From positions 1 through 64,000 of the forward strand of contig JAJDDY010000056.1 of assembly GCA_029260075.1 (NCBI GenBank): a DNA stretch of 64,000 nt, written 5' to 3'. Within the stretch, counting starts at the first letter, position 1; every line of letters starts with the position of its first letter. The notes beneath the pieces are model-generated. The model saw only the letters and a program-made list of their open reading frames with translations, did no database searches and was not told the origin of the DNA. Below are positions 30,634 through 52,415 of the stretch, piece after piece. Source of the DNA: Phycisphaerae bacterium. GTDB lineage: Bacteria; Planctomycetota; Phycisphaerae; UBA1845. The position numbers and the translations under genes are program-made.

Positions 30634-32796
30634 CTACGCTGGTTGTTCCGGCTCAGTCATGAACTGCGTTTCGCACAATACGCGATAGATAGAGCAGCGC
30701 CCGAAGAGGTCGGCGTGTACACCCGTGTCGACCACGCGACCGGCGTCCATCACCACAATACGATCGGCAAACTTGATCGTACTGAGGCGGTGCGCCACGA
30801 TCAACGTCGTGCGGTCCTTGGCGAAGTCCTGCAGCGCGAGTTGGATTTTCTGCTCGGACTCTGAATCGATCTGACTTGTGGCTTCGTCAAAAATGAGGAC
30901 CGGGGCGTCGCGATAGATCGCCCGTGCGATGGCCAACCGCTGACGCTGGCCGCCGGATAGCTTGCCGCCCCGTTCGCCCAACTCACCATCGTAGCCGCCG
31001 GGAATCGACTGAACGAACTCGTCGGCTGACGCGCGACCGGCTGCGTCTTCCACGCGATCGACGTCGACGGATTCATCTTGACCGTACGCAATGTTGTCGG
31101 CGGCGCCGGCGTCAAAAATAATCGCCTCTTGCGTCACGATACCAATCTGCCGGCGCAGGCTTGGAATGGTCGCATCGCGAATGTCGACACCGTCGTATCG
31201 AATCTCACCTTCGGTCGGATCAAAGAAACGCAGGAGCATGCTCATCAGTGTGGTCTTCCCGCACCCGTTCGGACCGACGATGGCCACTGTCTCGCCTCGC
31301 CGAATTGTGAGCGTGACGTCGCGGAGTGCAGGCACGTCCGCGCCGGGATATGTAAACGAAACACCCACGTACTCCATGCTGGTTTCCAGCGGTTGGAACT
31401 CGACCGAAGCGCGCGACAGCTCCGACTCGATCGGTTCGTTGATCACATGAAAAACCCGGTCCGCCCCACCGGCGGCGCGCTGAAGTCGAACGTAAACTTC
31501 CGTCACCTTCTTAAGCGGGTCGAACAAGATGGACATGCTCACGCCCAGCGCCGCGAACTTGGCCATCGATACGTCGTTGTCGAGCACGCGGGCGGCGAAC
31601 CAGATGATGACGAAGCTCCCGCCGATGATCGCCAGCGTCTCCATCATCGGGCTGACGAACGCCTGCAGCTTGACCAGCTTGAGTTGTTGCTTGAACACCT
31701 GCTCGTCAACAAGACGCAATCGCCGGCGCTCGTGTGACTCCGCCGTGAACGCCTTGACCACGCGCAAACTTTGAAGCGTCGACGTGAGTGCAGCCATCAT
31801 TGCCCCGTAAGCGCCCAAGAGCCGTCTCGCGGATTTCTTGACGCTCCGTCCTACGGACCAGAATATGATGACGGCAAACGGGCCCACGACGACCATGGCT
31901 AGCGTCATGCGCCAATCCAACGCGAACGCCCACACCACGATAAAGGCGGCACGAAGCGGTTCCCGCAAGAACTTGCTGTACAGCGTTTGCAGGCCTCGCT
32001 GTATCTCTTGAATGTCTTGAACGAATCGCGCCGCAATATCTGACGTCGCCTGACCGGAAAAGAACGACATGGGCAGGTGCAGCGTGCGGTCGTAAAGTAA
32101 ACCGCGAAGGTCCATCATCGTGCGGAACACTACGTCCGCGAGCAACACCTCACCCGCATACCGAAAGACATTGGCGATCACAACCAAGACCACAAGCCCG
32201 ATCAACAGATAGGTGAGCGTGTTGAGCTTGCCCGCGGCGCCGCCTTGACCAAGCCACCGACCGCCGCGCAACAGCCATCGCGATTCGGCCGCTGGCGCAT
32301 CCGGTTGGATCGCCACAGTGCGCACCTCGGCGCTGACGTCCTCGTCGCCCGCCTGCCAAGAAACGGTCGCAGTCGACCCGGCAGGAAGCTCCGCGAGGTG
32401 TTGCAAAACCCCGCGATCGTCATCCCCATCGACCCACATACGAGCATCAACGCTAACCCCGGCGCGAGCGAGCGGACCGCCCTCCGTCACCGCGACGACA
32501 CGAACGCCGCCCGCGTCGACAGGTTGACTTAGCTCGGCCCCCAACCGCCAACCGGCCACGGTGCGATCAACCCAGCCGTTCACGCCCTCTTTGTCGAGAA
32601 GCACTTTGAAGACAGGAAACGCGGTCATGATCCCCACGGTATGCAAGCACGCGTAGACGACAGTACACACCAGACCCATGAGTAGCGTTCTGCGGAATCG
32701 CAACGACATGCGGATCACCCGGCGGAGATTCGGCGATCGCACCGCACCCTTGTGCTGACGCGAGCGGGCACCGAGCATGGCGATTCTACCACTCAT
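30634..32796 (-). CDS. MsbA-like ABC exporter (fused TMD-NBD) with PDZ-like periplasmic insertion
   Basis: A 720-residue ABC transporter half-molecule that would dimerise in the inner membrane and export lipids, glycans or drugs. The first membrane segment (LLMGLVCTVVYACLHTVGIM) is followed by an unusual extracytoplasmic insertion of about 120 residues; VVAVTEGGPLARAGVSVDAR with MWVDGDDD resembles a PDZ domain. The other membrane segments and an ABC domain follow: Walker A GPNGCGKTT, signature LSGGQRQR, Walker B VLIFDEATSQ and switch VAHRLS. The ATG at 32796 was chosen over an upstream TTG. A polysaccharide or lipid A-type substrate is suggested only by nearby genes. Confidence 0.9.
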   Translation of the reverse strand: MSGRIAMLGARSRQHKGAVRSPNLRRVIRMSLRFRRTLLMGLVCTVVYACLHTVGIMTAFPVFKVLLDKEGVNGWVDRTVAGWRLGAELSQPVDAGGVRVVAVTEGGPLARAGVSVDARMWVDGDDDRGVLQHLAELPAGSTATVSWQAGDEDVSAEVRTVAIQPDAPAAESRWLLRGGRWLGQGGAAGKLNTLTYLLIGLVVLVVIANVFRYAGEVLLADVVFRTMMDLRGLLYDRTLHLPMSFFSGQATSDIAARFVQDIQEIQRGLQTLYSKFLREPLRAAFIVVWAFALDWRMTLAMVVVGPFAVIIFWSVGRSVKKSARRLLGAYGAMMAALTSTLQSLRVVKAFTAESHERRRLRLVDEQVFKQQLKLVKLQAFVSPMMETLAIIGGSFVIIWFAARVLDNDVSMAKFAALGVSMSILFDPLKKVTEVYVRLQRAAGGADRVFHVINEPIESELSRASVEFQPLETSMEYVGVSFTYPGADVPALRDVTLTIRRGETVAIVGPNGCGKTTLMSMLLRFFDPTEGEIRYDGVDIRDATIPSLRRQIGIVTQEAIIFDAGAADNIAYGQDESVDVDRVEDAAGRASADEFVQSIPGGYDGELGERGGKLSGGQRQRLAIARAIYRDAPVLIFDEATSQIDSESEQKIQLALQDFAKDRTTLIVAHRLSTIKFADRIVVMDAGRVVDTGVHADLFGRCSIYRVLCETQFMTEPEQPA

Positions 32797-33086
32797 GTCG
32801 TTTGATTCTTCTCGATGGCAGGACCAGAGCAAGCGTAACGGTAGACCACAAACAGTCGTCAGACGAAAACGAGTCCGGTGTGCAAGAACTCATATCGAGC
32901 GAGCGGGACTAGACCACAAAGCAAGACGAAACGCAAGCGGAGGCTGGGCCATCGTGTGCGCAGCCATCCGTATGCAGTGCGGCATGCGTCCTATCCCGGT
33001 CCTACGGTGGACGTGCGAGAAAGGATTCACGCACCAGCGTGATCCACATACCCGCACCCTCGCCCAGCCTTCCTAATGGCGCATCG

Positions 33087-34334: not shown

Positions 34335-35135
34335 CTACGACGGTCGCGATGTGCTGTCGGCGAAGTGTGTTGCCCACCAAGATGGGAACTCATCACGAAA
34401 GTGGGCGAACATACGACCGGCGATGCCCTGGTTGCGGCCATAGTATTGTAACGGTCGCGGTCGAAGCACCGCCTCGACGAGTTGGGATCGTTCCTCGCGC
34501 AGCACGATCATCGTTACCGTCACACCGGGTCCGAGTCGACGTATGATCTCACCGAAGTTGAACCTCTCCGACGGACCGGGCGCCTCCAGCAACGATCCGT
34601 CGAACGAAACGATCACGTCGCCCTCTTGCAGATCGGCTTCCTCCGCTGCGGTGCCGGGAATGATGCGACCGATCTCGACGCCGAGGTACCCTTCGTGGAT
34701 GCGCGGATCGTCTTCGTGGTCCATGGGTCGGCGCCCCTGGCTGATACCTAGAAAACCATTCCGTTCAAACACGTGGAAGTTCAGGTAGACGCGGCGGGCA
34801 ATGCTCTCGATCCGCAAACGACCCTCCAAGTCGTGCGTACGCTGGAACGCCTCGCGCAGTTGCGGAAAAATTCGCGCGCCGATGTCGACCAATCGATCCG
34901 TGGCTCGACGACGATCCGGGTAAGCGGGTGAATGAAGTTCAGCGAGCAGGGCCTGTGTTTCGTCGGAAAGACGGTCGCTGATCGGAAGATCGAACTCTTG
35001 GCCGGATTGCGATTGCGTAACCCACGCCGGCGGGTCTTCCTGCGGAGCAATCGCGACCACCGCCCCACCGTCGCACACCGCACCCGCAAGAAGCAGAACA
35101 AGTCGACCGATCGTTACTTGTCCTTCCCGTATCAT
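34335..35135 (-). CDS. Exported PDZ-domain protein, paralogue 1
   Basis: A 266-residue protein, the last of three tandem paralogues. A hydrophobic N-terminus (TIGRLVLLLAGAVCDGGAVV) suggests export. A helical region about 55-120 (ELHSPAYPDRRRATDRLVDI, FPQLREAFQRTHDLEGRLRI) resembles a HEAT-like unit, followed by the shared NFHVFERNGFLGIS and a PDZ domain (YLGVEIGRIIPGTAAEEADL, then QEGDVIVSFDG). The C-terminal motif is EFPSWWATHFAD. No protease domain is attached. It lies 29 bases after paralogue 2. The function is unknown; substrate or partner binding at the envelope is inferred. Confidence 0.78.
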   Translation of the reverse strand: MIREGQVTIGRLVLLLAGAVCDGGAVVAIAPQEDPPAWVTQSQSGQEFDLPISDRLSDETQALLAELHSPAYPDRRRATDRLVDIGARIFPQLREAFQRTHDLEGRLRIESIARRVYLNFHVFERNGFLGISQGRRPMDHEDDPRIHEGYLGVEIGRIIPGTAAEEADLQEGDVIVSFDGSLLEAPGPSERFNFGEIIRRLGPGVTVTMIVLREERSQLVEAVLRPRPLQYYGRNQGIAGRMFAHFRDEFPSWWATHFADSTSRPS

Positions 35136-35164
35136 CACGATCCGCCACGTCTCCGTTCGACCGG

Positions 35165-36031
35165 CTACGCGCCGACAGCGCCGGCCGCAAGGTCGTTCTC
35201 GAAGTAGGTAGCCCACCAGACGGGAAAACGACGGGCGGCTTTGCGGTATAGCTCAGACGTGCCGCGAACAGTGTTTCCCTTGGCTTGCTTCGGCGGGCAA
35301 CGACCGAGCGTCACATCAATCGTTATGGGTTTCGAGCCGCGCAGCACGTCAAGCTTGAGACCATACCCGGGACGTTTGGTACGAATCCGCTTACTGAGGT
35401 TGTTGAGCAGATCATTCCCGACACCGTGCAGCGGGCGGCCATCGACGGCCACGATGACGTCGTGCTTCTTGACGCCGGCGCGCTCCGCTCCGGTCCCTTT
35501 GATAATGTTCACGACCACAACGCCGACGGTGTCTTTCGGTATGCCTTTGACCGGTTGACGAACGGATGGATAGGGTTGCATGCTGACGCCGAGAAACCCG
35601 TTCCCATCGTAGACGTGGAAATTGAAGTATCCGGTGTACGCGATGCGTTCGATGCGCAGACGCAATTCAAACGTGTCGGAATCGCGGTAGGCGTCACGAA
35701 GCTTCGCAAACGCCGACGCCCCGATCTCGATCAGCTCCGCAGTCGCCTTCTCACGCTCGCCATACGTCGGGTCGTCAAGACGATCGATCGTCGCATCGAT
35801 GCGGTCGGCCAACTGATCATCCAACGGCAGATGAAACAACTCGTCGGAGACGGCGTCTTCGACAACCGCACCGTCCAACGCCCGCGGCGCTGTGGGTCGC
35901 TGCCCAAACGCATCGCTGCACGAACCAACCACGACGACAAGCATCAGCCAGACAATAACCCGCCGCGGCGAAGCCTGACCCAAGCAACGATCCTCAATCG
36001 ACCACATCGTATGACCCGCTGCCGCCCTCAT
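35165..36031 (-). CDS. Exported PDZ-domain protein, paralogue 2 (probable lipoprotein)
   Basis: A 288-residue protein with a signal segment ending VVVGSCSD, a possible lipobox. It shares the paralogues' layout: helical unit (REKATAELIEIGASAFAKLR), FNFHVYDGNGFLGVSMQPYP, then a PDZ domain with VVVVNIIKGTGAERAGVKKH and DVIVAVDGRPLHGVG, and a C-terminal ARRFPVWWATYFEN. The ATG at 36031 overlaps the stop of paralogue 3 in ATGA, indicating translational coupling; a second ATG at 36007 would give a shorter signal. There is no catalytic domain. Confidence 0.8.
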   Translation of the reverse strand: MRAAAGHTMWSIEDRCLGQASPRRVIVWLMLVVVVGSCSDAFGQRPTAPRALDGAVVEDAVSDELFHLPLDDQLADRIDATIDRLDDPTYGEREKATAELIEIGASAFAKLRDAYRDSDTFELRLRIERIAYTGYFNFHVYDGNGFLGVSMQPYPSVRQPVKGIPKDTVGVVVVNIIKGTGAERAGVKKHDVIVAVDGRPLHGVGNDLLNNLSKRIRTKRPGYGLKLDVLRGSKPITIDVTLGRCPPKQAKGNTVRGTSELYRKAARRFPVWWATYFENDLAAGAVGA

Positions 36032-36900
36032 TGGTCTGTCCGATCGATTGGCGCCGATTCGAAATGCGCCGTCCACCACGTCGGGAAACGGGCCTCAGCC
36101 TCACGCAAGAGCCGCGGTATGACCTGTATGTTCCCACGGCGAACCGAGGTGCGCGCCGCGCGACCCACCGTCGCAATAATCAATCGCTCCCGACCCTTGC
36201 GCCACAGGCCGATGCGCAGGTCCGTACCCGGACGATGCGATCGCACAGTCGCGGCGAACGCCTGAACCAATTGGCCCCTTGTTCCGTCTATCGGATGGCC
36301 GTCCAACGACACGATCACGTCGTTCTCTAATAGCCCCGCGCGACCCGCTCCGCTGCCCTCGACGACATTGGTGACGACCACGCCGACGGTACCTTCCGGC
36401 ACGTCGATGGCCCCGTGCTGCGCCAGCCAATAGGGTCGCAAACTTACACCGAGGAAGCCGTTGCGATCGAAAACGTGGTAGTCGATGTAGGCCTCGCGAA
36501 CGATGCCTTCGATACGCAGCTTGGTCTCCAGATCGTCCGTGCCACGGTATGCACGCTGAAGCGTAGGCAGTGCCGCGACGCCGACATTAAGGAGTTGCTT
36601 GGTCGCGTCGTTACGGTATTCGAAGATGGGCGATCCGAGCTGTGCGACTCGCTCTCGAATCAACTCAGCCTGACGCGGGCTGATCTCCTTGGGAAACTCT
36701 TGATCGGAAACGGCGAGCGAATCACCGAAATCGACGGGTGTCCCTAGCTGAGCCGCCGACAGGCAAGGAAACCACAACACCCCGAGCGACAAGACAACCA
36801 TCGCACGCGCGCTCACCGGCATTTGATCGATGACCGGCGCGCGCAGCGACGAACCGCCCGCGTTGCGTCGATTGATGCGTTGATCGCGTGCCGGTATCAA
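36028..36900 (-). CDS. Exported PDZ-domain protein, paralogue 3 (first of the set)
   Basis: A 290-residue protein, promoter-proximal in the three-gene unit. The hydrophobic segment MVVLSLGVLWFPCLSAAQ is a likely signal peptide. The shared features are present: NDATKQLLNVGVAALPTLQR, YHVFDRNGFLGVSLRPYW, a PDZ domain (VVTNVVEGSGAGRAGLLEND, then VIVSLDGHPIDG) and the C-terminal EARFPTWWTAHFES. The start is uncertain. A TTG at 36900 has GGAG seven bases upstream and is used here; the ATG at 36822 gives a more typical signal peptide but has no visible ribosome binding site. Confidence 0.78.
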   Translation of the reverse strand: MIPARDQRINRRNAGGSSLRAPVIDQMPVSARAMVVLSLGVLWFPCLSAAQLGTPVDFGDSLAVSDQEFPKEISPRQAELIRERVAQLGSPIFEYRNDATKQLLNVGVAALPTLQRAYRGTDDLETKLRIEGIVREAYIDYHVFDRNGFLGVSLRPYWLAQHGAIDVPEGTVGVVVTNVVEGSGAGRAGLLENDVIVSLDGHPIDGTRGQLVQAFAATVRSHRPGTDLRIGLWRKGRERLIIATVGRAARTSVRRGNIQVIPRLLREAEARFPTWWTAHFESAPIDRTDQ

Positions 36901-37214: not shown

Positions 37215-38348
37215 TCATAGCACGGTCGTCAGCTCTTTGCAGACCCGATCGATGTCCGATTCCGTCAACTCGTGGTGCAGGGGCAGTGCGATCGTGCGGG
37301 CGGAAAGAGCCTCGCAGACCGGCTGATCGCCGGGCGCGAATCCGAAGCGCTCACGATAGAACGGTTGCAAATGAATGGGCGTAAAATAGTCGCTGCATGC
37401 GATGCCGCACTGGCGCAGGTGCGCCAAAATCCGATCGCGATCAGTCCGCTCGTAGGCGTCATTCAAACGAACGGCGAACACAAACCAACTCATACCTACG
37501 TTGGCGTCGACGCGCTGCATCGTCACGCGCGACTCACCAGCGAGCCGCGACCGATACGCATCGACCACACGCTTGCGGACACTGAGTATCTCATCTAACC
37601 GCGTGAGCTGCGCCATGCCCAAGGCACAGTTGATATCACTAAGTCGATAGTTATACCCCAACCGCTCATGATCAAGCCAACCCTCACCGCCGCCGCGCCC
37701 CTGATTGCGCAACGACCGACAGCGCGCTGCGACGGCTTCATCGTCCGTAACGATCATGCCGCCCTCACCCGTCGTAATCTGCTTGTTGGGATAGAAACCG
37801 AACACACCGGCGTCACCCAACGACCCGGCCGGGCGTCCCTTATACCGACCACCGAGCGCCTCACACGAATCTTCAATCACACGAAGATTTTGCTTACTCG
37901 CGATGTCGCGAATCGGATCCATGTCCGCCACTTGGCCAAACACATCGACCGGGATGATGGCTTTGGTGCGTTCGCTGATCGACCCGCCAAGAAGCCTGGG
38001 ATTGATGTTCCACGTCTCGGCGTCGATGTCGACGAACACCGGGGTCGCGCCGACCATGAGTATGCAGTTGGCTGACGCCACAAACGAAAACGGCGTCGTG
38101 ATCACCTCGTCGCCCGGTCCGATGTCATACGCGAGCATGAGGAGGTGAAGCGCCGCCGTGCCACTCGATACGGCCACGGCGTAACGGGTTCCACACACCT
38201 CCGCAAACTGGGCTTCGAACTCGGCCAGCTTTGGTCCGAGGCTTAGATTCGGCGACCGAAGGACGGCCGTCACCGCCTCAATCTCTGCCGCGGTGATGTT
38301 CGGACGTGCGAGGGGTATGGTTCGCATTGTCGTTTCGGATTGCGTCAC
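37215..38348 (-). CDS. DegT/DnrJ/EryC1/StrS family sugar aminotransferase
   Basis: A 377-residue PLP-dependent aminotransferase acting on nucleotide-linked keto sugars. It begins (after eight residues) MRTIPLARPNITAAEIEAV; the PLP Lys is in FGFYPNKQITTGEGGMIVT, and EDSCEALGGRYKGRPAGSLG and NYRLSDINCALG match the family. The GTG at 38348 is used because GGTGAGG lies five bases upstream; an ATG at 38327 is the alternative. It is divergent from the UDP-sugar dehydrogenase gene, so the two may share a regulatory region and act in one amino- or acid-sugar pathway feeding polysaccharide synthesis. Confidence 0.9.
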   Translation of the reverse strand: MTQSETTMRTIPLARPNITAAEIEAVTAVLRSPNLSLGPKLAEFEAQFAEVCGTRYAVAVSSGTAALHLLMLAYDIGPGDEVITTPFSFVASANCILMVGATPVFVDIDAETWNINPRLLGGSISERTKAIIPVDVFGQVADMDPIRDIASKQNLRVIEDSCEALGGRYKGRPAGSLGDAGVFGFYPNKQITTGEGGMIVTDDEAVAARCRSLRNQGRGGGEGWLDHERLGYNYRLSDINCALGMAQLTRLDEILSVRKRVVDAYRSRLAGESRVTMQRVDANVGMSWFVFAVRLNDAYERTDRDRILAHLRQCGIACSDYFTPIHLQPFYRERFGFAPGDQPVCEALSARTIALPLHHELTESDIDRVCKELTTVL

Positions 38349-38601
38349 GAAAACCTCACCAATTCGACGGTTTGGCATACCGCCCGTACGTGCATTATAG
38401 TGTGCACCGCCTCGGGCCGATATGCCTTCAGGCCTCACCGTCGCCGGCGGAAACCCGATGACCGGCGCGGCGGTCGTTATTGTTCATCGGAACAGACGTC
38501 CGGCACGAATAGCCCACGGAAAGACGCCGGCGGTATCGTTCGCTCGCGGATAGCAACATTGGTTAAGCACGCCCAACGGCGATGCAGGTGTACCAGAAAT
38601 C

Positions 38602-39972
38602 ATGATGACAAAAAAACAGCGCAACGCGACAGGCACCCCCAAACGACCCATGTTGTCCGATAACCAATGGTTGAGCGCCGTCGAGACTCGAACAGTACGC
38701 GTAGGGATTATGGGAATGGGTTACGTGGGTCTCCCGCTGATGCGCACGTTTTGTTCGTCCGGGTTCAAGTGCCTCGGCTTCGACGTTGATCAACGCAAGG
38801 TCGATCAACTCAACGCCGGCAAGAGCTACATCAAACACATTCCGTCCAAGCTCATCAAAGACGTGGTCAGCCGGAACCGGTTCCGCGCCAGCGCCGATCC
38901 CAAGTCGCTGAAGACATGCGACGCCATTTTGATTTGCGTGCCCACGCCCCTTACCGCCACACGCGAGCCGGACATGAGCTACGTCGAAAACACGGCCCAT
39001 CTCATCGCAGAGCATCTACAACGTGGGCAACTCATCGTTCTCGAATCCACGACCTATCCCGGTACGACGCGCGACCTGGTCAAGCCGATTCTTGAGAGCA
39101 GTGGCCTCAAGGCCGAAAAAGATTTCTTCCTCGCCTATTCACCCGAACGTGAAGACCCGGGGCGGCAGGACCACACCACCGAGACGATTCCCAAGGTCGT
39201 CGGCGGTATCGGTCCCAAGAGTCGTACCGTAGCTGCGGCACTATACGGTGCCGCCGTCGAGCAGGTGGTTGACGTGTCGCGCTGCGAAGTGGCTGAGGCC
39301 TGCAAGATACTTGAAAACGTCTACCGAAGCGTCAACATCGCCATGATCAACGAGCTCAAAATGCTCTTCGATCGCATGGACGTTGACGTGTGGGAGGTCA
39401 TTCGCGCCGCCGCCACCAAACCGTTCGGGTTCCAACCGTTCTATCCCGGTCCGGGTCTCGGCGGCCACTGCATCCCCATCGATCCGTTTTACCTGACGTG
39501 GAAGGCACGCCAGTACGACATGACCACAAGGTTCATTGAACTGGCTGGCGAAATCAATACGTCGATGCCCATCTATGTCGTACAGCGATTGACTGACGCG
39601 CTCAACGACAAGAAGAAATCCGTCAACGGATCCAAGGTGCTCGTGCTCGGCCTTGCGTACAAGAAAGACGTCGATGACATTCGCGAGTCACCGTCCATCG
39701 AGTTGATTGAGATGCTCCGCGAGCGCGGCGCCAAAGTCGATTACAACGACCCCCACGTACCGCGTACGCCCCGGCAGCGCGAACACAACCTCGGCATGAC
39801 CAGTAAGAAACTGACCGACAAGATGCTCGCCGGATACGACTGCGTTCTGATCGCCACCGACCATACCGCATACGACTACGCCTGGATCGTCAAACACGCG
39901 AAGCTCGTGGTCGACACGCGTAACGCATCCGTCGACGTAAAGCGCGGCCGAGCGAAGATCGTTAAGGCGTAA
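38602..39972 (+). CDS. wbpA: UDP-N-acetylglucosamine/UDP-sugar 6-dehydrogenase (WbpA/WecC type)
   Basis: A 456-residue nucleotide sugar dehydrogenase oxidising C6 of a UDP-sugar to the uronic acid with two NAD. The Rossmann motif is VGIMGMGYVGLPLM; the central domain has ESTTYPGTT and SPEREDPGR, and the catalytic Cys lies in GPGLGGHCIPIDPFYL. The C-terminal UDP-binding domain contains VLVLGLAYKKDVDDIRESPS. SPEREDPG and GGHCIPIDP are closer to UDP-GlcNAc dehydrogenases (WbpA) than to UDP-glucose dehydrogenases, so WbpA is the preferred name, but substrate is not proven. Two adjacent ATGs exist, at 38602 and 38605. Confidence 0.9.
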   Translation: MMTKKQRNATGTPKRPMLSDNQWLSAVETRTVRVGIMGMGYVGLPLMRTFCSSGFKCLGFDVDQRKVDQLNAGKSYIKHIPSKLIKDVVSRNRFRASADPKSLKTCDAILICVPTPLTATREPDMSYVENTAHLIAEHLQRGQLIVLESTTYPGTTRDLVKPILESSGLKAEKDFFLAYSPEREDPGRQDHTTETIPKVVGGIGPKSRTVAAALYGAAVEQVVDVSRCEVAEACKILENVYRSVNIAMINELKMLFDRMDVDVWEVIRAAATKPFGFQPFYPGPGLGGHCIPIDPFYLTWKARQYDMTTRFIELAGEINTSMPIYVVQRLTDALNDKKKSVNGSKVLVLGLAYKKDVDDIRESPSIELIEMLRERGAKVDYNDPHVPRTPRQREHNLGMTSKKLTDKMLAGYDCVLIATDHTAYDYAWIVKHAKLVVDTRNASVDVKRGRAKIVKA

Positions 39973-40500: not shown

Positions 40501-43500
40501 GTGAATCGGTTACGTTGCAACATCATTGGATTCGTCGCAATCAGCGCGATCATCGGGCCTTGGGTTTCGACAACTGTAGCACAGGACTGGTACGTCTCCT
40601 TCTTCAAGGAACACAAGCCGCTCCAACTGCAAACCGACCGTATCGCGGTGATGGAGCGCCAAGCGGACGGTGTCACGGCCATGGTCGCGACGCCCGCTGC
40701 GCTCACCCGGGTTGGCATCAAACAGGCTGACATTACGCCCTCCGTAATCGTCCGCTGGTCGAAAGCGACGACGCCCGCCGGCAAACGCACGGCCCTAGAT
40801 ACGCAAGACCTGGTGAGGACCCTGGCCGCAAGCGGCGATCTGGAATTCGTCTCCCCCGTGTTCTTGGACGAGCGCAATCTTCCCCTTCACCTGACACCCT
40901 ACGTGCTCGTTCGTTTCAAAGAAGGCGTGACAGCCAAACAGGCCAATGCGATTCTCGCCGGTTCGGGCGTGGTGGTCGAGGTAGAAAACTTCGCGAACAT
41001 TTCGCGGGTCTATCGCGCACGATGCAACTCGCGCGACGGGTTTGAAGTCTTGGCGATGACAAACCAACTTGCCGGACGAGCCGATGTTATTTTCGCCGAG
41101 CCGGACTTCATCAAGACGGGCGTGACATCTCAATTCATTCCTAACGATCCAATCTTCCCAGCGCAGTGGGCGTTGCACAACGTCGGCCAAGACGGTGGTA
41201 CCGCCGACATGGATATGGACGCCCCGGAGGCATGGGACATCGCACTCGGCAACCCGAGCATCATCACCGTCGTCTTGGACGTGGGTGTGCAGCAAGACCA
41301 TCCCGATCTCAACCTCGTCCCCGGATTTGACGCTACGGGCCAGGGAACGGGCGGCGGACCGGGCAACGCTTGTGACGGACACGGTACGACGGTAGCCGGA
41401 GTGATCACGGCGTTGATCGACAACAATCGCGGCACCGCCGGGCTCGCGCCGCTTACTAAAGTTGGTGGCGCACGAATCGGGATTTCCAACGTACCTTGCG
41501 ACGGCACTTTCTCGTTTTCGACTTCGTGGCTTACTTCCTCACTCGATTGGGCCCTGACGATCGGAGCGCGCGTCACCAACAACAGCACCAGCGCCGGCGG
41601 TTCATCTATCAACAAGACCAAGTATGACGAAACGCGAGATGCTGGCATCGTCCACCTCACGTCGGCTGGAAACGGCGGCTTTGGGCAAATCTTCCCACCA
41701 GCTACGTATGGTTCAGTGCTTGCCGTCGCCGCCCTGACGCGCAACGGTGCGCTTGCCAGCTTCAGTCAGTTTGGTGACGGGCTGGGATTTTCCGCACCGG
41801 GCGAGAGCATCGCGACCGCCGACGAAATCGGCGCGGCCGGGTTTGGACCGGGCGACACGGTCACGGTCAACGGCACGTCGTACGCCTCGCCATACGCCGC
41901 CGCCGTCGCCGCCTTAATCCTTTCTGTGGATTCCAGCCTCGACGCGCGCAATGTTCGGCAGATCATGGAAGAGACCGCCGTTGATCTTGGCGATCCGGGC
42001 TACGATACCGTGTTCGGATTCGGCTTCCTCAATGCGCTCGCTGCTGTGCAGGCCGTACAAGCCAAGTTTCAACCGTGCGAGTTGGACCGACTAACCCGCA
42101 ACGAGCTGGCCGCCTTCGACGACTTCGGCGGCTCGATCGATATTGAGGGCGAATGGATCGTACTCGGCGCGTCCGGCGACGACGACGCAGCCAGCAGCTC
42201 CGGCGCCGCCTATGTGTATCGACGCAACGGCGGGGTCTGGGATTTCCAACAGAAACTGGTTGCGTCCGACGCGGCGTTCGCCGACTTCTTCGGCAAGTCT
42301 GTAGCCGTCAGCGGCGATTGGATTATCGTGGGGGCCTCCGGTCGAGACGACAATGGAAGCGGCTCTGGAACGGCATACGCATACCAGTGGAACGGTGTGA
42401 TTTGGGTCGAACGCCACAAGATCTTCCCTGCTGACGCCGCGGCCGGCGATGCGTTCGGCGCTGCCGTCGCCATGAGCGGAGACGGTGCCGTCATCGGTGC
42501 CCGTCTCGACGATTGCGCTAACGCCACTTCGAACTGCGGAGGCGCCTATGTCTTTCGTCTGATAGGAAGCACTTGGACTGAAGAAGCAAAGCTCGTTGCC
42601 CCTGATGCCCTCTCGGGCGCAACGTTTGGCAACGCGGTATCCATGGACGGCACAGTGGCGGCCGTGGGTGCAGTTAGCACCAGCTGTCTTGTCGGTGGTG
42701 GCGCCTGCGGCGCCACCTACATGTTTAGCTTTGACGGAGCAAATTGGGACACCGGGGCCAAACTCACGGCGTCGGATCAAGTGGCCGGTGATGGGTACGG
42801 CACCTCGGTGGCCGTAAGTTCCGGACACGTCATCATGGGCGGAACCGGCGCCTCGTGCGGCCTCAGCTTCCCCAGTTGCGGCGTCGCCTACCTCTACGAG
42901 TTCGACGGCGCCAACTGGACCAACGAAGTCCGCCTCGCCCCCAACCTCCAGTCGGCATCGGATTTGTTCGGACAATCCGTAGCCATCTCGGGCGACTTGG
43001 CCATCGTGGGCATGAACAAGGATGACTGTGCGGGCGGCGTTGCTGACTGCGGATCGGCCGTTCTGTTCCGTCGCGACGTCACCACCGGGGTCTGGTCGCA
43101 AGATAATCTGGTGGGCTCTACAAGTCCGGTCGCCGGCGCTCGCTTCGGACAATCCGTTGCGATCGAGGGCACGATTGCGGCGGTCGGTGCGTCGCGAGAC
43201 TCCTGCCTGAACGGTACCAACTGCGGCGCCGTCTACGTCGTCGGCCTCACCGAAGACTGCAACCAGAACGGTATCGTCGACGTCTGCGATATCTTCCAAG
43301 GGCCGAGCCTCGACCTGGATCTCGATGGGCGACCAGACGAATGCACCTGCATTGCCTCGTCCACACCGCAGACCGACACGCTCGGGCCGAAAAACCGCTA
43401 CCTCTCCGTAATCGCGGGGGACGCCGGACTCAATCAAGCCGTCCGCGTGACGTGGACCGGCGCGCCGGCGGGTCACACAGACCTGATTGGCCTGACAATG

Positions 43501-44001
43501 TGGATCGGAGCCGCCAGCGACGTAAGCGAGAATAGCGGATTCATATCAGCTGTGGGCGGGTTCCCAGACTTCAAAGCCGCCACGCTCCAATGCACGCCCT
43601 TCTTCGCAGACTTCAGCGCTCTGGGCACGATTCAGGTGTTCCACCAGAATCTCATTCCGGGCGTAACGGTCTCGATTCAGGTGATGGAAGAAACGTGCCT
43701 GGGGCTCGTAGACGACTTCTCAGCCGCGCTGGTCGTAACCAACAGCATTTGGGGTGACGTCGTGTCGGACTGTTCCGTACTGCCGTGTGGGCCGCCGAAC
43801 AACTCGGCCGACCTCCCGTTCGACACCGTGGCGATCCTGGACAAGTTCGTCAATTTGGCCACCGGGCCCATCAAATCCCGATGCGACATCGACCCCGAAG
43901 TGCCGAACCGTATCATCGACATATCAGACGTGACGCGATCCGTCGATGCCTTCGGGGCCAACCCATACCCGTTTGCGACGGACGCCGCAGTCTGTCCCTA
44001 G
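40501..44001 (+). CDS. Secreted subtilisin-like serine protease with seven FG-GAP repeats and dockerin-like linker
   Basis: An 1166-residue exported protein. A signal peptide (NIIGFVAISAIIGPWVSTTV) ends near VAQ28; a long propeptide-like region leads to an S8 domain with Asp260 (VVLDVGVQQDHPDL), His294 (GHGTTVAG), oxyanion Asn391 and Ser460 (NGTSYASP). Seven FG-GAP-like repeats follow (such as DDFGGSIDIEGEWIVLGASG and FGQSVAISGDLAIVGM), probably a beta-propeller. Next is DCNQNGIVDVCDIFQG, a calcium-loop dockerin-like motif common in planctomycetes, and a Cys-containing C-terminal beta domain. It starts with GTG after a strong GGGGAGGT. DVGV replaces the usual DTGV but the triad is complete. 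Confidence 0.9.
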   Translation: MNRLRCNIIGFVAISAIIGPWVSTTVAQDWYVSFFKEHKPLQLQTDRIAVMERQADGVTAMVATPAALTRVGIKQADITPSVIVRWSKATTPAGKRTALDTQDLVRTLAASGDLEFVSPVFLDERNLPLHLTPYVLVRFKEGVTAKQANAILAGSGVVVEVENFANISRVYRARCNSRDGFEVLAMTNQLAGRADVIFAEPDFIKTGVTSQFIPNDPIFPAQWALHNVGQDGGTADMDMDAPEAWDIALGNPSIITVVLDVGVQQDHPDLNLVPGFDATGQGTGGGPGNACDGHGTTVAGVITALIDNNRGTAGLAPLTKVGGARIGISNVPCDGTFSFSTSWLTSSLDWALTIGARVTNNSTSAGGSSINKTKYDETRDAGIVHLTSAGNGGFGQIFPPATYGSVLAVAALTRNGALASFSQFGDGLGFSAPGESIATADEIGAAGFGPGDTVTVNGTSYASPYAAAVAALILSVDSSLDARNVRQIMEETAVDLGDPGYDTVFGFGFLNALAAVQAVQAKFQPCELDRLTRNELAAFDDFGGSIDIEGEWIVLGASGDDDAASSSGAAYVYRRNGGVWDFQQKLVASDAAFADFFGKSVAVSGDWIIVGASGRDDNGSGSGTAYAYQWNGVIWVERHKIFPADAAAGDAFGAAVAMSGDGAVIGARLDDCANATSNCGGAYVFRLIGSTWTEEAKLVAPDALSGATFGNAVSMDGTVAAVGAVSTSCLVGGGACGATYMFSFDGANWDTGAKLTASDQVAGDGYGTSVAVSSGHVIMGGTGASCGLSFPSCGVAYLYEFDGANWTNEVRLAPNLQSASDLFGQSVAISGDLAIVGMNKDDCAGGVADCGSAVLFRRDVTTGVWSQDNLVGSTSPVAGARFGQSVAIEGTIAAVGASRDSCLNGTNCGAVYVVGLTEDCNQNGIVDVCDIFQGPSLDLDLDGRPDECTCIASSTPQTDTLGPKNRYLSVIAGDAGLNQAVRVTWTGAPAGHTDLIGLTMWIGAASDVSENSGFISAVGGFPDFKAATLQCTPFFADFSALGTIQVFHQNLIPGVTVSIQVMEETCLGLVDDFSAALVVTNSIWGDVVSDCSVLPCGPPNNSADLPFDTVAILDKFVNLATGPIKSRCDIDPEVPNRIIDISDVTRSVDAFGANPYPFATDAAVCP

Positions 44002-45839: not shown

Positions 45840-47042
45840 TCAGGCAAGACATTCTGTTCCCGCAACCGCCGTCGTTCCGCTGCGACGGCAAAGCTCACGA
45901 AAGAATTCACGGCGACGCTCGTTGAGAATGTCCGCGTGATACTGTCGGGCTGTTTCCAGGTTGCGTGCCGACGCGCGCACCATGCGCTTGGCGTCCCCGA
46001 GGTACTCATCAATCTTCCTCGCCAATCCCAAGACGTCCCCCGCTTCCACCATATCATCCGCCGGAAGCAACTCCGGGATGCCGCCGACGGTTGATCCGAT
46101 ACATGGAAGACCGCGCGCCATGGCTTCAATCATCGCACGTGGCAACCCTTCTTGTCGCGACGGCAACACGAACAGATCGGCGTTGTCGAGCGCCGCACGC
46201 ACGTCCTGACTCGACGCCAACATGCCGGTGAACTCAATCCGATCGGCAACGCCCAAAGAATTGGCCAGTGATTGAAGTTCCTCAGCGCAACGACCGTCAC
46301 CGGCCACGGTCAGTTTGATGTCATTCCATTGGCACTTGGCCAGCGCCTGAATCAATACGTCTTGGCCTTTGTACAGCACTTCCAGTGTGCCGACGAAGAC
46401 GATGCGCTGGGCCTCGGAGAAGTCTGTCCGGGGCGTTTCGACGAACGATTCGGAACCAAGGTCGATGCTGGAGTAGTGCGTGGCGAACGCATCCGGTCCC
46501 GACGGATAAGATCGTTGGAGCGCTTCTCTCGTTACGTATGATGCGACGCAAGCGTCCTGACATTGGCGGCGAAGTTCTCGTCGAGCCGAGCGCCGAACGA
46601 ATGGCCGCGTCAAAGACTTGACCGCACCCGGAGCGAGCGAATCCCACGGATCACCCACGACCTCAACCCCGAAGGCCTTGCCACGCCTACGCAACTCGCG
46701 ATAGGCGAGCGTCCCGATCCAACACGGTACGCGCAGGCAGAATACGTCGTATCGATCCAAGACATCACGGAGTATTTCAACCACCTTGCGCCGAACGGAT
46801 ACGTATTGCCATGGGCCGACGAAAGACGGTAGATCGTGAAAAGAGACGCCGTCACCATCGGCGCGGATCATCGACGGGGGCACAGAGTCGACAGTCATCA
46901 CACGACAAGTCACGCCCACTTCATCAAAAACCGAACGGTATCGCGTCCAAAATGGTAGCGCGAGCGTGGGCGTCGGTGCATAGACGTGGCCATCCGGTCC
47001 ACGAACCAATCGACCGGCAAGCGTGATCAATACCTTAGCCAT
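45840..47042 (-). CDS. Glycosyltransferase, family 4
   Basis: A 400-residue GT-B enzyme. The C-terminal domain shows RIVFVGTLEVLYKGQDVLIQ, VAGDGRCAEELQSLANSLGV, LFVLPSRQEGLPRAMIEAMA (the EGLPRAMIEA E-x7-E-like motif) and GSTVGGIPELL, all hallmarks of GT4. The N-terminal domain is short of a clear acceptor signature. It is the last gene of the leftward exopolysaccharide group, 66 bases after the secreted hypothetical protein. Confidence 0.9.
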   Translation of the reverse strand: MAKVLITLAGRLVRGPDGHVYAPTPTLALPFWTRYRSVFDEVGVTCRVMTVDSVPPSMIRADGDGVSFHDLPSFVGPWQYVSVRRKVVEILRDVLDRYDVFCLRVPCWIGTLAYRELRRRGKAFGVEVVGDPWDSLAPGAVKSLTRPFVRRSARRELRRQCQDACVASYVTREALQRSYPSGPDAFATHYSSIDLGSESFVETPRTDFSEAQRIVFVGTLEVLYKGQDVLIQALAKCQWNDIKLTVAGDGRCAEELQSLANSLGVADRIEFTGMLASSQDVRAALDNADLFVLPSRQEGLPRAMIEAMARGLPCIGSTVGGIPELLPADDMVEAGDVLGLARKIDEYLGDAKRMVRASARNLETARQYHADILNERRREFFRELCRRSGTTAVAGTECLA

Positions 47043-47108
47043 GGCGATTGCAGTTCATCACGTGGCGACCTCAGTCTGCGCCGGGCCCTTGCCGGGGCGT
47101 GGCCATCG

Positions 47109-48080
47109 TTACTTCGGCCACGTTCGAATAACGTCAGGCAAAATGTCGTGACTCACCCACACCCACTGCCCCCGACACTCGGGGTAGCGCAGACGGATGG
47201 CCTTCAAATCATAGGCCACAACCTCGGCTGCAGTCAGTAATCGCTGCTTCTTCAGCACATCCTGAGAGCGCCCGAGCCCGACGTTGCTACCGAAGTAATC
47301 CACGCGGTGATCGCAGCCCGGCGCCGGGCGGACGACAGGCCGATTGCGCGACGATGACCGCGTGTAGTACGTCTTGCTGTCACATCGATAGTCCGCGAGT
47401 TTCAAGAGCGACCACGCATAGTGCGACGACCGCATCGAACTCGTGGGCGTAATGAGGGTAACTCGCCCGGCCTTCTTGGTGGCTTTCATTACGACGCCTT
47501 GAATTTTCCGGAGCTCCGCTGGCGTGTGATCATGGAATTTGAGGGTCGGCTTCTGCACACTCTTGCCGTACGGCTCGAGGTCAAGCATGGTCCACTTGGT
47601 GCCAATGGACTTGGCTTCATGCTTTACGGTGCGGATCGCCGTCGCGTAGAACTCGGAGTCGAGGTAACTCTGTTCGTTGGGAAGTTGACGCTGACTACCG
47701 GGCCACGCCACCCAAAGCCACCGACCCCATATCACACCGATACCGCGCTCGCGACAGGTCTTGATTGCCTTCACCACAAGTTCATGGTGAATAGCGTTTG
47801 GTTTTTCTTGCCACGAAGGAACGACGAGCATGATGTGCGTGAACCATCGCAGCTCGCTCAGGGCTTCGACCACCCGCGCGTCTTCAGCGGCCGTGTTGTT
47901 ACGCAGTTTGAGCAACACGTGGAGAATCTTCGCGTCATAGAGATCACCCGACACATCGGCAGACCGAGTCTCCCGCTTACCAACGAACTCCAGACCATCG
48001 CCCTTGTTCGCGCCGCAGAGCGATCCGGTCAATACGGCACATTGGAACAAACATATCGCAAGATGCTTGGGTCGAATCAT
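47109..48080 (-). CDS. Secreted protein of unknown function, possibly a glycosidase-like barrel
   Basis: A 323-residue protein with a signal peptide (HLAICLFQCAVLTGSLCGAN). Features such as ACRERGIGVIWGRWLW-like strand-helix alternation (CRERGIGVIWGRWLWVAW), WTMLDLEPYGKSV with acidic residues after a beta-strand, and VTLITPTSSMRSSHYAWSLL suggest a TIM-barrel glycoside hydrolase, but I do not recognise a family. Its ATG overlaps the sulfotransferase stop (ATGA), so it is translationally coupled to the polysaccharide genes and may process or bind the exported polymer. The function is inferred from context only. Confidence 0.65.
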   Translation of the reverse strand: MIRPKHLAICLFQCAVLTGSLCGANKGDGLEFVGKRETRSADVSGDLYDAKILHVLLKLRNNTAAEDARVVEALSELRWFTHIMLVVPSWQEKPNAIHHELVVKAIKTCRERGIGVIWGRWLWVAWPGSQRQLPNEQSYLDSEFYATAIRTVKHEAKSIGTKWTMLDLEPYGKSVQKPTLKFHDHTPAELRKIQGVVMKATKKAGRVTLITPTSSMRSSHYAWSLLKLADYRCDSKTYYTRSSSRNRPVVRPAPGCDHRVDYFGSNVGLGRSQDVLKKQRLLTAAEVVAYDLKAIRLRYPECRGQWVWVSHDILPDVIRTWPK

Positions 48081-49000
48081 CGTTGCTCCTGACCTAATGT
48101 GACCGCCTGTGGTTCAATCGTTTCCTTGCACGCCGCGTCGAGTCGGGCGAGCATGTCGTCGCAAAGGTTCTTGACACGCTCATTCGAACCGCCGTACGGG
48201 CGTTTCCGCAGTGACTTCGTGAAGACGCCGCTGACCATGTCGTGACTGAAACGCACGTCGAGAAAATCGCACATTCGTTCGAATTCCCGAACCGGCTCTG
48301 TGGCTGCATCCTCGTAGCGCGTCAACAACGTCCGCGGGTTCCGGTCCAGATTTTGCTCGAAGAACGTTCGGTTCCGCATGTACCAAAACAGCGCAGCGGC
48401 GTCATGGATGACCATCTCGTCGCCGGCAGCCTCACGCATGGTTGAGAGGCAGTCCTCCGTCACGCCCTCTCGATTCCACTGGGCGAATCCCCAATCGCCG
48501 CCCCCGTCGAACAATTCACGAATATAGGTCAGCGATTGATCACCCCAATACTCGACAGCGGAGTTGGCCACATCGCGGTAGTCGCGGTAGCACCAGATGC
48601 CTTTGCTGCCCGGGTACAGATCGTAGAGTTCCAACGCCCGATGCGAATCGCAGATGGGTTTGAAGATGGTGCAGCGTGCTGTTGCCCTTGCGGCAAGCGC
48701 AGCACACGTTTCCGTATCGATGATCCGACACTTGTCGAACGCCCGGGGGTCGTTCTCCTCCACGCAATCGACGTCCATGGATTGCCCGAGCACACGCAGG
48801 GTCATGTTGGTGCCAGATCGCTGGCATCCGAAGACGAACGCCACGCGGCGTTCGGCGGCCACGCCCTCGTTCTGGCGGAAGCGTTCCTTGCGACGAGCCA
48901 ACACGTACCTATTCCACGAGGTGCGACACTTCGTCCGCACCCGCTTCCAAAACGTGCTTGGCGTCCGCCCTATTCGAACCACGTGCGCCTTGGCCATCAT
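48077..49000 (-). CDS. Sulfotransferase family protein
   Basis: A 307-residue cytosolic enzyme. RVAFVFGCQRSGTNMTLRVL contains the 5'-phosphosulfate-binding loop of PAPS-dependent sulfotransferases, and the later GIWCYRDYRDVANSAVEYWG corresponds to the 3'-phosphate-binding segment (R-D-x-R-D-x-x-x-S). The C-terminal RYEDAATEPVREFERMCDFL is also typical. It probably sulfates a sugar residue of the polymer built by the flanking genes. The ATG at 49000 overlaps the stop of the preceding glycosyltransferase in ATGA, and its own stop overlaps the next gene in the same way. Confidence 0.88.
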   Translation of the reverse strand: MMAKAHVVRIGRTPSTFWKRVRTKCRTSWNRYVLARRKERFRQNEGVAAERRVAFVFGCQRSGTNMTLRVLGQSMDVDCVEENDPRAFDKCRIIDTETCAALAARATARCTIFKPICDSHRALELYDLYPGSKGIWCYRDYRDVANSAVEYWGDQSLTYIRELFDGGGDWGFAQWNREGVTEDCLSTMREAAGDEMVIHDAAALFWYMRNRTFFEQNLDRNPRTLLTRYEDAATEPVREFERMCDFLDVRFSHDMVSGVFTKSLRKRPYGGSNERVKNLCDDMLARLDAACKETIEPQAVTLGQEQR

Positions 49001-50247
49001 CCACACTCCGGTAACAGGCCGGGAAGATGCTGCTCAAAGGCACTCTTGAGCAACTTCAAACGCCCTTCAAAAGTCATCGCGCGAGCCCGCGCGTAACCGC
49101 CGGCGATCAACCGCTTGCGCAACGCCGCGTCATCCATCACGCGTTCGATTGCCTCCGTGAGCGCGTCGACGTCGGCGTGCGGAACGAGCAGCCCGTCCGC
49201 GTCGCGGTTCACCATGTTCGGTATGCCGCCGATTTCGGTCGCGACCACGGGCGCACCCGCCGCCCACGCTTCAATAATCATACGCGGTGTGCCTTCGTAA
49301 TGCCCGCGTGAGGGAAGCACGACAATGTCCGCCGCTCGATAGTGAGACCACAGCTTCGGACCAGCCGGTATGCCACCGAAAAAAGTCACGTGTTCTTCAA
49401 GTTGTAGTTCCGCCGCAAGCTTCTTCAACTCCGGAAGATACTCGCCTTCGCCCGCGACGTTCAATCTAACCGAGCGTCCGCCGTCGCGCATCCTCCGCAC
49501 AGCATGGATCAAGTCGTCAATGCCTTTGGACTCGATCATTCGGGTGGCTACGAACAGCGTAACGTCGCCGCCCACACACGTGTCGTCGCGAACGAAGATG
49601 TCGTCCTCACCAATCAGTGAATGATAGGACACGACTTTCGGTGCGTCGCTCGGCGGAAACGTCTCGTGAAGATGGGCGTTGACCGCGATGAGCAGCTTGG
49701 CGTTCGCTGCGAACCGTCGCTCGACGCCGCGATAGTACATAGCCGCCAAGCGCGATCGCCATGGTTTGCGTACGACGACACCCGAAGGAGCGCTCATCGA
49801 TCCGCCCATCTCCAGATAGAAAGGCGTCCGAGTTGCTATGGCTGCGACGCCGGCGAGAAAGGCGACTGAACTGACGTGCTCCAACAGAACGAATGACGCT
49901 TGAGCGACGAGACGACGGACTACGGATCGCGCTCGCCAATACGTCAACGACCGACCGATCATACCCCGGGCGTCGAAACCGCGAAGTAGCAACGGCTGTA
50001 ACGAAGGGTCGAGCGGCACGGTCACTTGACTGTCGCGCGTGCGGTCCTCCGTGAGTACGACCGTTGTGCCCGGTACGAGCACGCCGTGGGCGCGCAGGGT
50101 CGAATTCCAGTAGGCAGCCACGTGCATCTGACCATCGCGCCAGAACCCAGTCGTTTGCGTAAAGATGAGTTGGTGAAAGGGACCGGTGGCTTCGTCGGCA
50201 TACGGAGGAGCGGCGCAGGTTTGAGTGCCACGATTCGGCATTGACAT
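48997..50247 (-). CDS. Glycosyltransferase, family 4
   Basis: A 416-residue GT-B enzyme. Motifs include FVATRMIESKGIDDLIHAVR, LNVAGEGEYLPELKKLAAEL, VVLPSRGHYEGTPRMIIEAW (E-x7-E region) and GAPVVATEIGGIPNMVNRDA, DGLLVPHADVDALTEAIERV. The first 30 residues are not conserved; the ATG at 50247 was chosen as an internal start because upstream in-frame starts lie inside the flippase coding region. It is translationally linked to the following sulfotransferase gene. Confidence 0.88.
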   Translation of the reverse strand: MSMPNRGTQTCAAPPYADEATGPFHQLIFTQTTGFWRDGQMHVAAYWNSTLRAHGVLVPGTTVVLTEDRTRDSQVTVPLDPSLQPLLLRGFDARGMIGRSLTYWRARSVVRRLVAQASFVLLEHVSSVAFLAGVAAIATRTPFYLEMGGSMSAPSGVVVRKPWRSRLAAMYYRGVERRFAANAKLLIAVNAHLHETFPPSDAPKVVSYHSLIGEDDIFVRDDTCVGGDVTLFVATRMIESKGIDDLIHAVRRMRDGGRSVRLNVAGEGEYLPELKKLAAELQLEEHVTFFGGIPAGPKLWSHYRAADIVVLPSRGHYEGTPRMIIEAWAAGAPVVATEIGGIPNMVNRDADGLLVPHADVDALTEAIERVMDDAALRKRLIAGGYARARAMTFEGRLKLLKSAFEQHLPGLLPECG

Positions 50248-50272
50248 TACCGCGTCCAACGTATCGCCTCTG

Positions 50273-51841
50273 CTACTTGCCAAGTATCCGGTTTTGTGCG
50301 CGACGGCAAGTTTGGATCATCCCGGTTCGATCATCCGACTTCAACACGAAAAACCAGCCGGTCGCCAACAATATCGTACCGCATACCGCCAGTCGAAACG
50401 CCAAGGGCATCCACGCGTCGACCGACACGCGCTCATTCCAAAGCAGGCCGATAATCGCCGCCGGGAGCACGGCCAAGAGTGGCCCCACAACCCCTTCCCA
50501 CACAAAGCAACCTATCGGCTGCTGTGTTTGTCGACAGCAGTACCACGGGATAATGACACCCCATATCGGAACCATCGGCAACGCGATGCCCCACGCCACC
50601 CGCACGATAGTGGCGTCATGGGCGGACGCGAGCACGATCACAAGCACCACCGACACCACGGCACCGGCAAGTGCGACGGCAGCCGGAACACGGTGCAGCC
50701 CCATGCCGTTGACGACATTATAGGCCGGCAACATCAACCAGAATAACGCGTACCCACACGTCAGCAATCGACACGTTTGAACCAGGGACGCCAGCGCCAA
50801 CTCGCCCGCCACGCCGGTGTAGTTCGCCCCGACCCAAAGCTTAAAGAGCACGTCCGCATACAACGCCAAGATGGCCACGCCGGCGAATGTGAAGAACGAC
50901 GTATACCGCGTCGATCGAAGGAGCAAGTGTCGGAGCATGCGGTCGTTGTTTTCTCCGTCGTATCGGCTGGCCACGACGCGACCACTAATGCCGAACGCGA
51001 CCACGAAGGAATGTATGGCCAATAGGAACGTGCCGGCGACGTTGAGGTCAGCCGCTTTTTCAGGGCTGATCAGCGCCCCGACCACGATCTGCGCCATCTG
51101 CAGGCCGACGTGAACGGACATCATGTAGACGACGCTGTTCAAACCGAATTCGAGGATCGGGCGGAGCTTCGTTCGATCCACCTGCCACGGTCGGAACTGC
51201 ACATGCTCGCACAGACGTAGCGCCGCCACCGTGCGAACGAGCGCGCCAACGAGATACGTCCCGCCACTCGCCACCGCGAGCAGAATGAGCCCGTCGCCCA
51301 CGCCGCACGCACGCAGTAGCCACAGAATCAGAATCATTCGAACGATGCTGGCCAGCATGTTCGTACCGGCGATGACGTCGTACCGCTGCAAACCAGCGAG
51401 CACGGCGGAGTACGCATTCTGCGAAAGACCGCACGCGAGCGTTAGCCCGGTGATGAGCACCATGAGGCGAACCTGCGTGTGGTACTCTTGGGGTATGTCA
51501 AACCACGTGGGAAATGAGTTGCATAAAACCACCGTGAGGACGGCAATGACCATGCCGGCTACGCTGTAATATCCGGCTGCGGTGTTGACGTAACTGTTGA
51601 GCTCGCCCGACTCCTGCTTGGCCGTCCCGCCCGCAACATACCTCGCTACGGCTGACCGTAGACCCATGTCGAGCAGACGCGTGTAGGCGAAGATTTGTCC
51701 GGCGATGACCCAGATGCCGTATTGGTTTCGACCGATCGCGCCGATGGCGAAGGGCACAATGACGAACTGCGTGGCCATGGCGGTCACGCGAGCGGAGACG
51801 TTCAACAGGGCGTTGAGGATCAGCCTGGTTCGTTGGCGCAC
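50273..51841 (-). CDS. Polysaccharide flippase (Wzx/MATE-like, PST family)
   Basis: A 522-residue integral membrane protein with about 12-14 hydrophobic segments, probably flipping lipid-linked glycan units across the inner membrane. The N-terminal LNALLNVSARVTAMATQFVI and PFAIGAIGRNQYGIWVIAGQ are typical Wzx starts. The GTG at 51841 is preferred because GAGG lies six bases upstream; a longer frame reaching an ATG at 52006 runs into repeat A11 and shows no family similarity. It leads a coupled set: flippase, glycosyltransferase, sulfotransferase, secreted protein, glycosyltransferase. Confidence 0.87.
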   Translation of the reverse strand: MRQRTRLILNALLNVSARVTAMATQFVIVPFAIGAIGRNQYGIWVIAGQIFAYTRLLDMGLRSAVARYVAGGTAKQESGELNSYVNTAAGYYSVAGMVIAVLTVVLCNSFPTWFDIPQEYHTQVRLMVLITGLTLACGLSQNAYSAVLAGLQRYDVIAGTNMLASIVRMILILWLLRACGVGDGLILLAVASGGTYLVGALVRTVAALRLCEHVQFRPWQVDRTKLRPILEFGLNSVVYMMSVHVGLQMAQIVVGALISPEKAADLNVAGTFLLAIHSFVVAFGISGRVVASRYDGENNDRMLRHLLLRSTRYTSFFTFAGVAILALYADVLFKLWVGANYTGVAGELALASLVQTCRLLTCGYALFWLMLPAYNVVNGMGLHRVPAAVALAGAVVSVVLVIVLASAHDATIVRVAWGIALPMVPIWGVIIPWYCCRQTQQPIGCFVWEGVVGPLLAVLPAAIIGLLWNERVSVDAWMPLAFRLAVCGTILLATGWFFVLKSDDRTGMIQTCRRAQNRILGK

Positions 51842-51990
51842 GTACTTCCTCGAACAAGAAGCGAAAACGTAGTAGACCAGACCGTCTGGTTCGAACGGAA
51901 CAAGATCATCAACCGGCTCGACACATTCACGAACAGCCTTTGTGTACGGTTGTCGATCAACGGGTGTTCTCTTCTCGACCCACCGCGCTA

Positions 51991-52139: not shown

Positions 52140-52167
52140 CAGAACTCTGTCATCGATCCACCGACAG

Positions 52168-52360: not shown

Positions 52361-52415
52361 CAGAGCTCGCTGAGTCCTACGCGCTAGGTACGCCGTCTTG
52401 ATCGTGTGCGGCCAA

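Follow-up and report, generated by a model that had tools for sequence, protein, structure and literature searches.

The Locus and Its Three Genes

In the stretch of Phycisphaerae DNA analysed here (64,000 nucleotides, referred to below as the window), three genes, named A, B, and C, lie in tandem on the minus strand, gene C being transcribed first. Gene C (36028..36822) belongs to an open reading frame (36900-36028) that is open from a TTG at 36900, its likely start being the ATG at 36822; gene B (35165..36031) occupies the frame 36079-35165, with its likely start at ATG 36031, and gene A (34335..35135) the frame 35216-34335, with its likely start at ATG 35135, the three starts having been read off the sequence. 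The ATG of B overlaps the TGA stop of C as ATGA, while gene A starts about 30 nt past the stop of gene B. Pairwise identity among the three proteins is 31–37%; no fourth full-length copy was found in the same genome, the match ranking next being a 565-aa frame that aligns over its PDZ part alone. The initial annotation had described three tandem genes for exported PDZ proteins, with one PDZ domain each and with ATGA coupling of two of them, and this arrangement is indeed present, as judged from the reading frames, Pfam, and the sequence itself.

A hydrophobic N-terminus is found in each of A, B, and C, and a signal-like N-terminus in 51/56 members of the family to which they belong, as scored by a simple hydropathy test rather than by a trained signal-peptide predictor. 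Behind it lies a helical unit, at 36466..36657 in C, 35606..35797 in B, and 34764..34955 in A (all on the minus strand), for which three to four helices are predicted in the structural models made for B and for a relative. The unit had been called HEAT-like: its helical character is supported by the models; no Pfam HEAT model matched A, B, or C, and in a profile search against structures, alphaRep chains turn up, with no single stretch passing. The structure match lists obtained with the models cover mainly the PDZ part. The helical unit was also considered as a hallmark of the family and was rejected as such, being present in another exported-looking protein of the same genome, a 485-aa product encoded on contig 59 (L144:463-1920, minus strand).

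An HtrA-Type PDZ Domain without a Protease

The PDZ domains lie at 36181..36456 (C), 35297..35605 (B), and 34461..34760 (A), on the minus strand. Those of B and C are recognized by the Pfam model PDZ_2 (PF13180) with 45.5 and 39.4 bits, respectively, against a cut-off of 27; the domain of gene A, taken by itself, reaches 20.8–23.8 bits and stays under every PDZ cut-off, and gene A scores 255.7 bits with the family profile, being homologous along its whole length. When the profile of the family (29 members) was compared with known structures, DegQ (E 5.5e-26) and a DegP-type protease were among the best PDZ matches, and residues 143-245 of the model of B align to the first PDZ domain of DegQ (Z 15.5, 1.9 Å, 94 residues). 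The glycine ligand loop, [GA][FYM][LMIF]G, is present in 56/56 members. A, B, and C are members of the PDZ superfamily, of the HtrA type, by virtue of both the fold and the glycine loop at the start of the domain. The block FHVxxxNGFLGxS, earlier listed as a feature in its own right, dissolves largely into the first strand and the ligand loop of this same domain: GFLG is the point at which the match to the PDZ domain of DegP/DegQ starts, and NGFLG occurs in exact form in only 13/56 members.

With respect to catalysis, no catalytic family was detected by Pfam in A, B, or C, and in particular no trypsin-like domain, the domain with the His-Asp-Ser triad by which an HtrA/Deg protease is recognized; no partner domain was shown by Pfam either. 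The protease models of NCBIfam match the PDZ part only, far under their cut-offs: the match to the DegP model is confined to its positions 235-338 out of 434 (28.7–48.1 bits against a cut-off of 416), and that to the prc (Ctp/S41) model to its PDZ part, positions 60-133 of 335. The sole S41 match in Pfam concerns an N-terminal-domain model (E 0.057, under its cut-off). The earlier claim that neither a protease nor any other catalytic domain is present is thus in agreement with these searches, and A, B, and C would be classified neither as HtrA/Deg nor as Ctp/S41 proteases, the catalytic cores of both having gone undetected in their sequences.

The FxxWWxxxF Motif

A pattern search places the C-terminal motif F..WW...F at 36061..36087 in C, 35201..35227 in B, and 34362..34388 in A, on the minus strand. 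In the alignment of 56 members (64 open reading frames matched overall, those under 150 bits being omitted from the 56-member counts), the two tryptophan columns rank first and second by information content, with W in 55/56 and 50/56 members, and exceed every column of the PDZ domain; the two phenylalanine columns rank sixth and ninth (F in 49/56 and 49/54). This bears out the proposal that the motif was retained while the rest of the proteins diverged, and its conservation across related genomes shows that it is no peculiarity of this one. It is this family-wide conservation, and not the bare pattern, that places the motif above chance: at the DNA level the pattern has four matches in the genome, three of which are A, B, and C, against five for the reversed control, and the fourth (contig 18) lies inside no open reading frame of at least 60 aa on its strand.

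The Trp-Trp pair stands 8–47 residues before the C-terminus (median 22.5, 54 members), and the tails that follow it are short and mostly polar, a hydrophobic C-terminal residue being found in 1/54 members; one member cut by a contig end (L051) is omitted here, and the distance count also omits one without the motif (L073). Because the motif is internal and hydrophobic ends are so rare, it does not qualify as a classical C-terminal PDZ ligand, and the earlier suggestion that it is bound by another PDZ domain in this manner was rejected. A search with a profile of the tail, conducted in 20 genomes, gave matches at E<=1e-3 in family reading frames only (12/12), so that the motif goes together with this PDZ domain, and a role as a general sorting tag was likewise rejected. 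PEP-CTERM proteins carry a C-terminal PEP motif followed by a transmembrane helix and a basic end. By eye, the tails of the family are without a transmembrane stretch, the Trp-Trp pair being followed by the residues counted above, and on this basis the members do not appear to be PEP-CTERM sorted proteins.

The residues F, W, W, and F, at positions i, i+3, i+4, and i+8, fall on one face of a helix. A model of a relative, built with its N-terminus removed, contains a helix at 209-227 that includes F219, W222, W223, and F227 (block pLDDT 79 and 74), while the model of B over the same stretch has a block pLDDT of 54–59; both were built from five sequences, and the contacts of the helix can be read in neither. 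A moderately confident model thus predicts that FxxWWxxxF forms an amphipathic helix, referred to below as the WW helix.

Distribution and Paralogues

With the full profile at E<=1e-20, matches are found in 101/397 genomes of the class, in some of which the match extends over nothing but the PDZ domain of a frame some 500 aa long, which may be a protease. In the taxonomic family of the window 40/46 sampled genomes match, two (G006 and G384) only partly; in the sister family f4 no match was found among the 13 genomes listed, and across the phylum, at E<=1e-28, only 6/392 genomes match, that of the window included. The protein family is therefore found mainly in one order of the Phycisphaerae and becomes thinner beyond the taxonomic family of the window. 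Some outliers deserve to be described. Two planctomycete proteins from outside the class (L148 and L149) resemble the family in having the helical unit followed by the PDZ domain and differ from it in lacking the WW tail, as they stop straight after the PDZ domain; L147 ends in a looser RRWWDEAF, L146 in LWNDWW, and L145 is interrupted by an in-frame stop. Since outliers share the helical unit and the PDZ domain, this pair is older or wider than the family, which is marked by the strict WW helix.

Most genomes carry one copy and some two, either in tandem (G011, G012) or separate (G003, G010, G033). The three tandem paralogues recognized at the outset are real at this locus, although they do not constitute a system of their own. 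In a quick tree, in which 21/53 inner branches are open, C is grouped with the first of the two G011 genes (SH-aLRT 82 only), B is nearest to the second, and A is nearest to G031, G401, and G344. In G011 the two genes stand in the order C-B next to the same aminotransferase (see below), which points to a tandem duplication of old date; with the modest support of the tree, the three copies would be old, diverged paralogues rather than the product of a recent duplication.

Genomic Neighbourhood

Upstream of gene C, on the same strand, lies a DegT/DnrJ/EryC1 sugar aminotransferase (37215..38438, minus strand; PF01041, 414 bits), which is PseC-like, its score with the PseC model TIGR03588 being 350 bits under a cut-off of 423.5; it is followed by a divergent nucleotide-sugar dehydrogenase (38602..39972, plus strand; TIGR03026, 449 bits). 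The surroundings of the family were compared at 59 loci, that of the window included, upstream and downstream genes being called with a simple codon score of our own and not with a trained gene finder. The aminotransferase is found directly upstream and on the same strand at 17/59 loci, distributed over both main branches of the subtree of the window's family, and the dehydrogenase occupies the same divergent place at 14/59. An eighteenth aminotransferase locus is L056, where the gene is overlapped by an over-long family frame; the aminotransferase is not the called upstream gene at 42/59 loci, three of which reach the contig end first. If the antisense frames inside both sugar genes are set aside, the next neighbour cluster comprises 8 genomes and most others about five close relatives; as no other cluster exceeds 8 genomes, the link to the aminotransferase and the dehydrogenase outlasts the rest. 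Six DegT-type genes above the cut-off are present in the genome, which renders an adjacency by chance unlikely, with the proviso that the relatives compared are not independent. The family is also found in the company of, among others, a solute-binding protein, an APH-type kinase, miaA, and a Na/H exchanger, and several of the linked loci, L053 and L059 among them, have wider surroundings that do not look glycan-like when inspected by eye from the protein starts.

In the window itself, the wider region contains an MsbA-like exporter and glycosyltransferases, and part of it is a surface-polysaccharide block (45840-53741, minus strand) that encodes two GT4 glycosyltransferases, a sulfotransferase, a MatE-like flippase (just under its cut-off), and a Wzy/O-antigen-ligase-like protein. 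The MsbA-like ABC exporter (30634-32832, minus strand) has a partial PDZ-like stretch before the matched transmembrane region, for which a PDB search returned weak PDZ matches only (E 0.17 and up). At 40501-44001 (plus strand) a subtilase is followed by seven FG-GAP_2 repeats.

Downstream, a membrane gene resembling the CAAX proteases directly follows the family gene at six loci (L053, L054, L059, L061, L063, L116) and exceeds the cut-off of pepcterm_CAAX (TIGR03008) in all five cases scored, L116 not being among them; at L053 a second CAAX-like gene comes after the first. As a general partner this gene was rejected, the association being seen on a single branch of the tree only and no such gene above the cut-off being present in the genome of the window. 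At three further loci (L050:6650-9337, L112:10871-13552, L118:2831-5419) the next called downstream gene on the same strand encodes a protein of 863–896 aa, that of L050 being without any Pfam match.

Possible Function

Export, a conserved PDZ loop, the absence of an enzyme, and a nearly invariant aromatic helix, taken together, are best read as the signature of an adaptor. We tentatively propose, with a confidence that falls somewhat short of even, that A, B, and C are exported, non-enzymatic adaptors or scaffolds of the cell envelope, whose PDZ groove would bind a client and whose WW helix would fold back onto the rest of the chain or mediate dimerization. The protein would be exported by a Sec-type route; the PDZ domain, to judge from the sequence and fold matches, would hold the peptide end or a strand of an envelope protein. 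The conservation and the model of the relative are consistent with the helical unit, the PDZ domain, and the amphipathic helix forming one body, the aromatic face of the WW helix packing on the helical unit or on the PDZ domain, or else making a dimer; that the helix contributes to the fold or to a dimer is favoured because it is kept above any PDZ column and is found only with this PDZ domain. The recurrent aminotransferase and dehydrogenase hint that the client may take part in the assembly of a surface glycan, and the three copies probably serve different clients.

In keeping with the initial annotation, the same helix could instead lie exposed and act as a docking peptide to which a separate partner binds, be it the secretion or export machinery or another PDZ groove, A, B, and C then forming a hetero-complex. 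The exceptional conservation of the Trp-Trp pair, the short, mostly polar tails, and the joint retention of three diverged copies would be accounted for by such a peptide; its internal position and the scarcity of hydrophobic C-termini speak against it, as does the lack of a partner gene common to all loci, and a three-protein hetero-complex cannot be the general role in view of the single copy present in most genomes, so that this explanation is regarded as rather unlikely.

A further alternative is that of an adaptor for a periplasmic protease, the PDZ domain passing unfolded chains or C-terminal peptides to HtrA or Ctp. LbcA, a helical periplasmic adaptor of proteolysis for the C-terminal protease CtpA, offers a parallel, although in the CtpA–LbcA pair the PDZ domain resides in the protease and not in the adaptor. 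Entries of this complex (8sxe-8sxh) are among the structural matches, but they fit the PDZ region of the protease itself (model 137-251); the likeness of LbcA to the present family is one of working mode only, and the complex differs from it in its TPR part (title of 8sxg). The DegP/DegQ type of the PDZ domain and the CAAX-protease-like gene at six loci would suit this proposal; no HtrA or Ctp gene, however, is a conserved neighbour among those annotated, and the CAAX-like gene has the restricted occurrence described above, which makes an involvement in proteolysis improbable.

Finally, a function as accessory of the exosortase/PEP-CTERM sorting system, to which the presence of exosortase in 57/60 genomes and the adjoining pepcterm_CAAX-like gene might point, is highly improbable and largely refuted by distribution, since all three genomes without exosortase (G036, G043, G047) have a family member, and several with pepcterm_CAAX (e.g., G008, G018, G023, G035) have none.

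Relation to Known PDZ Proteins

The envelope adaptor proposed here has its closest known counterparts in the HtrA/Deg proteases (DegP, DegQ, DegS), with which the family shares export and the PDZ domain, as documented by the DegQ matches, and from which it differs in having no trypsin-like domain, a helical unit before its single PDZ domain, and the WW helix after it. A precedent is provided by PflC of the Campylobacter flagellar motor, which the available portion of the report (PMC12222027) presents as an exported, HtrA-derived PDZ scaffold of the periplasm without a catalytic triad, one domain of which, devoid of the conserved binding loop, is predicted to accommodate residues of the same polypeptide; PflC thereby offers a precedent for an HtrA-derived scaffold and, by this prediction, for self-packing. 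Unlike the family, it keeps a dead protease domain, has two PDZ-like domains, and belongs to a different phylum, and a WW helix is unmentioned in that portion of the report (PMC12222027).

A survey of microbial PDZ proteins distinguishes, in the portion available, 12 families, namely, Htr, Ctp, RseP, APN, Lon, SpoIVB, AP, ZEP, GspC, FeSO, ComP, and ChaN, and leaves 7% of the proteins unclassified (PMC6411480); compared by family names, none of the 12 is designated as a combination of helical unit, PDZ domain, and WW helix. A search of the published literature, mostly at the level of listings, found no description of this architecture either, in line with the statement of the initial annotation that no described system so organized is known. 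We therefore consider the family, HtrA-type PDZ proteins that are adaptor-like and carry a WW helix, to be apparently undescribed.

A more specific version of the proposal, which we regard as unlikely, pictures a planctomycete-specific scaffold built on an HtrA-type PDZ domain that lost its protease or never had one and gained the WW helix, its gene lying together with those for the amino-sugar aminotransferase and the nucleotide-sugar dehydrogenase; this envelope scaffold would hold the machinery by which a surface glycan is assembled or exported, with three copies specialized for their clients.

According to the same portion of the survey, the Planctomycetes are rich in PDZ proteins, and proteases make up the majority of the bacterial PDZ proteins that have been classified (PMC6411480). 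Combining a PDZ domain, no enzyme, and a hallmark motif kept throughout the family, the proteins described here illustrate concretely how a bacterial PDZ domain may be employed in a putative adaptor; with a motif that lends itself to testing, one copy per genome in most relatives, and a sugar-biosynthesis neighbour that recurs, the family should be of interest to specialists of both planctomycetes and PDZ domains.
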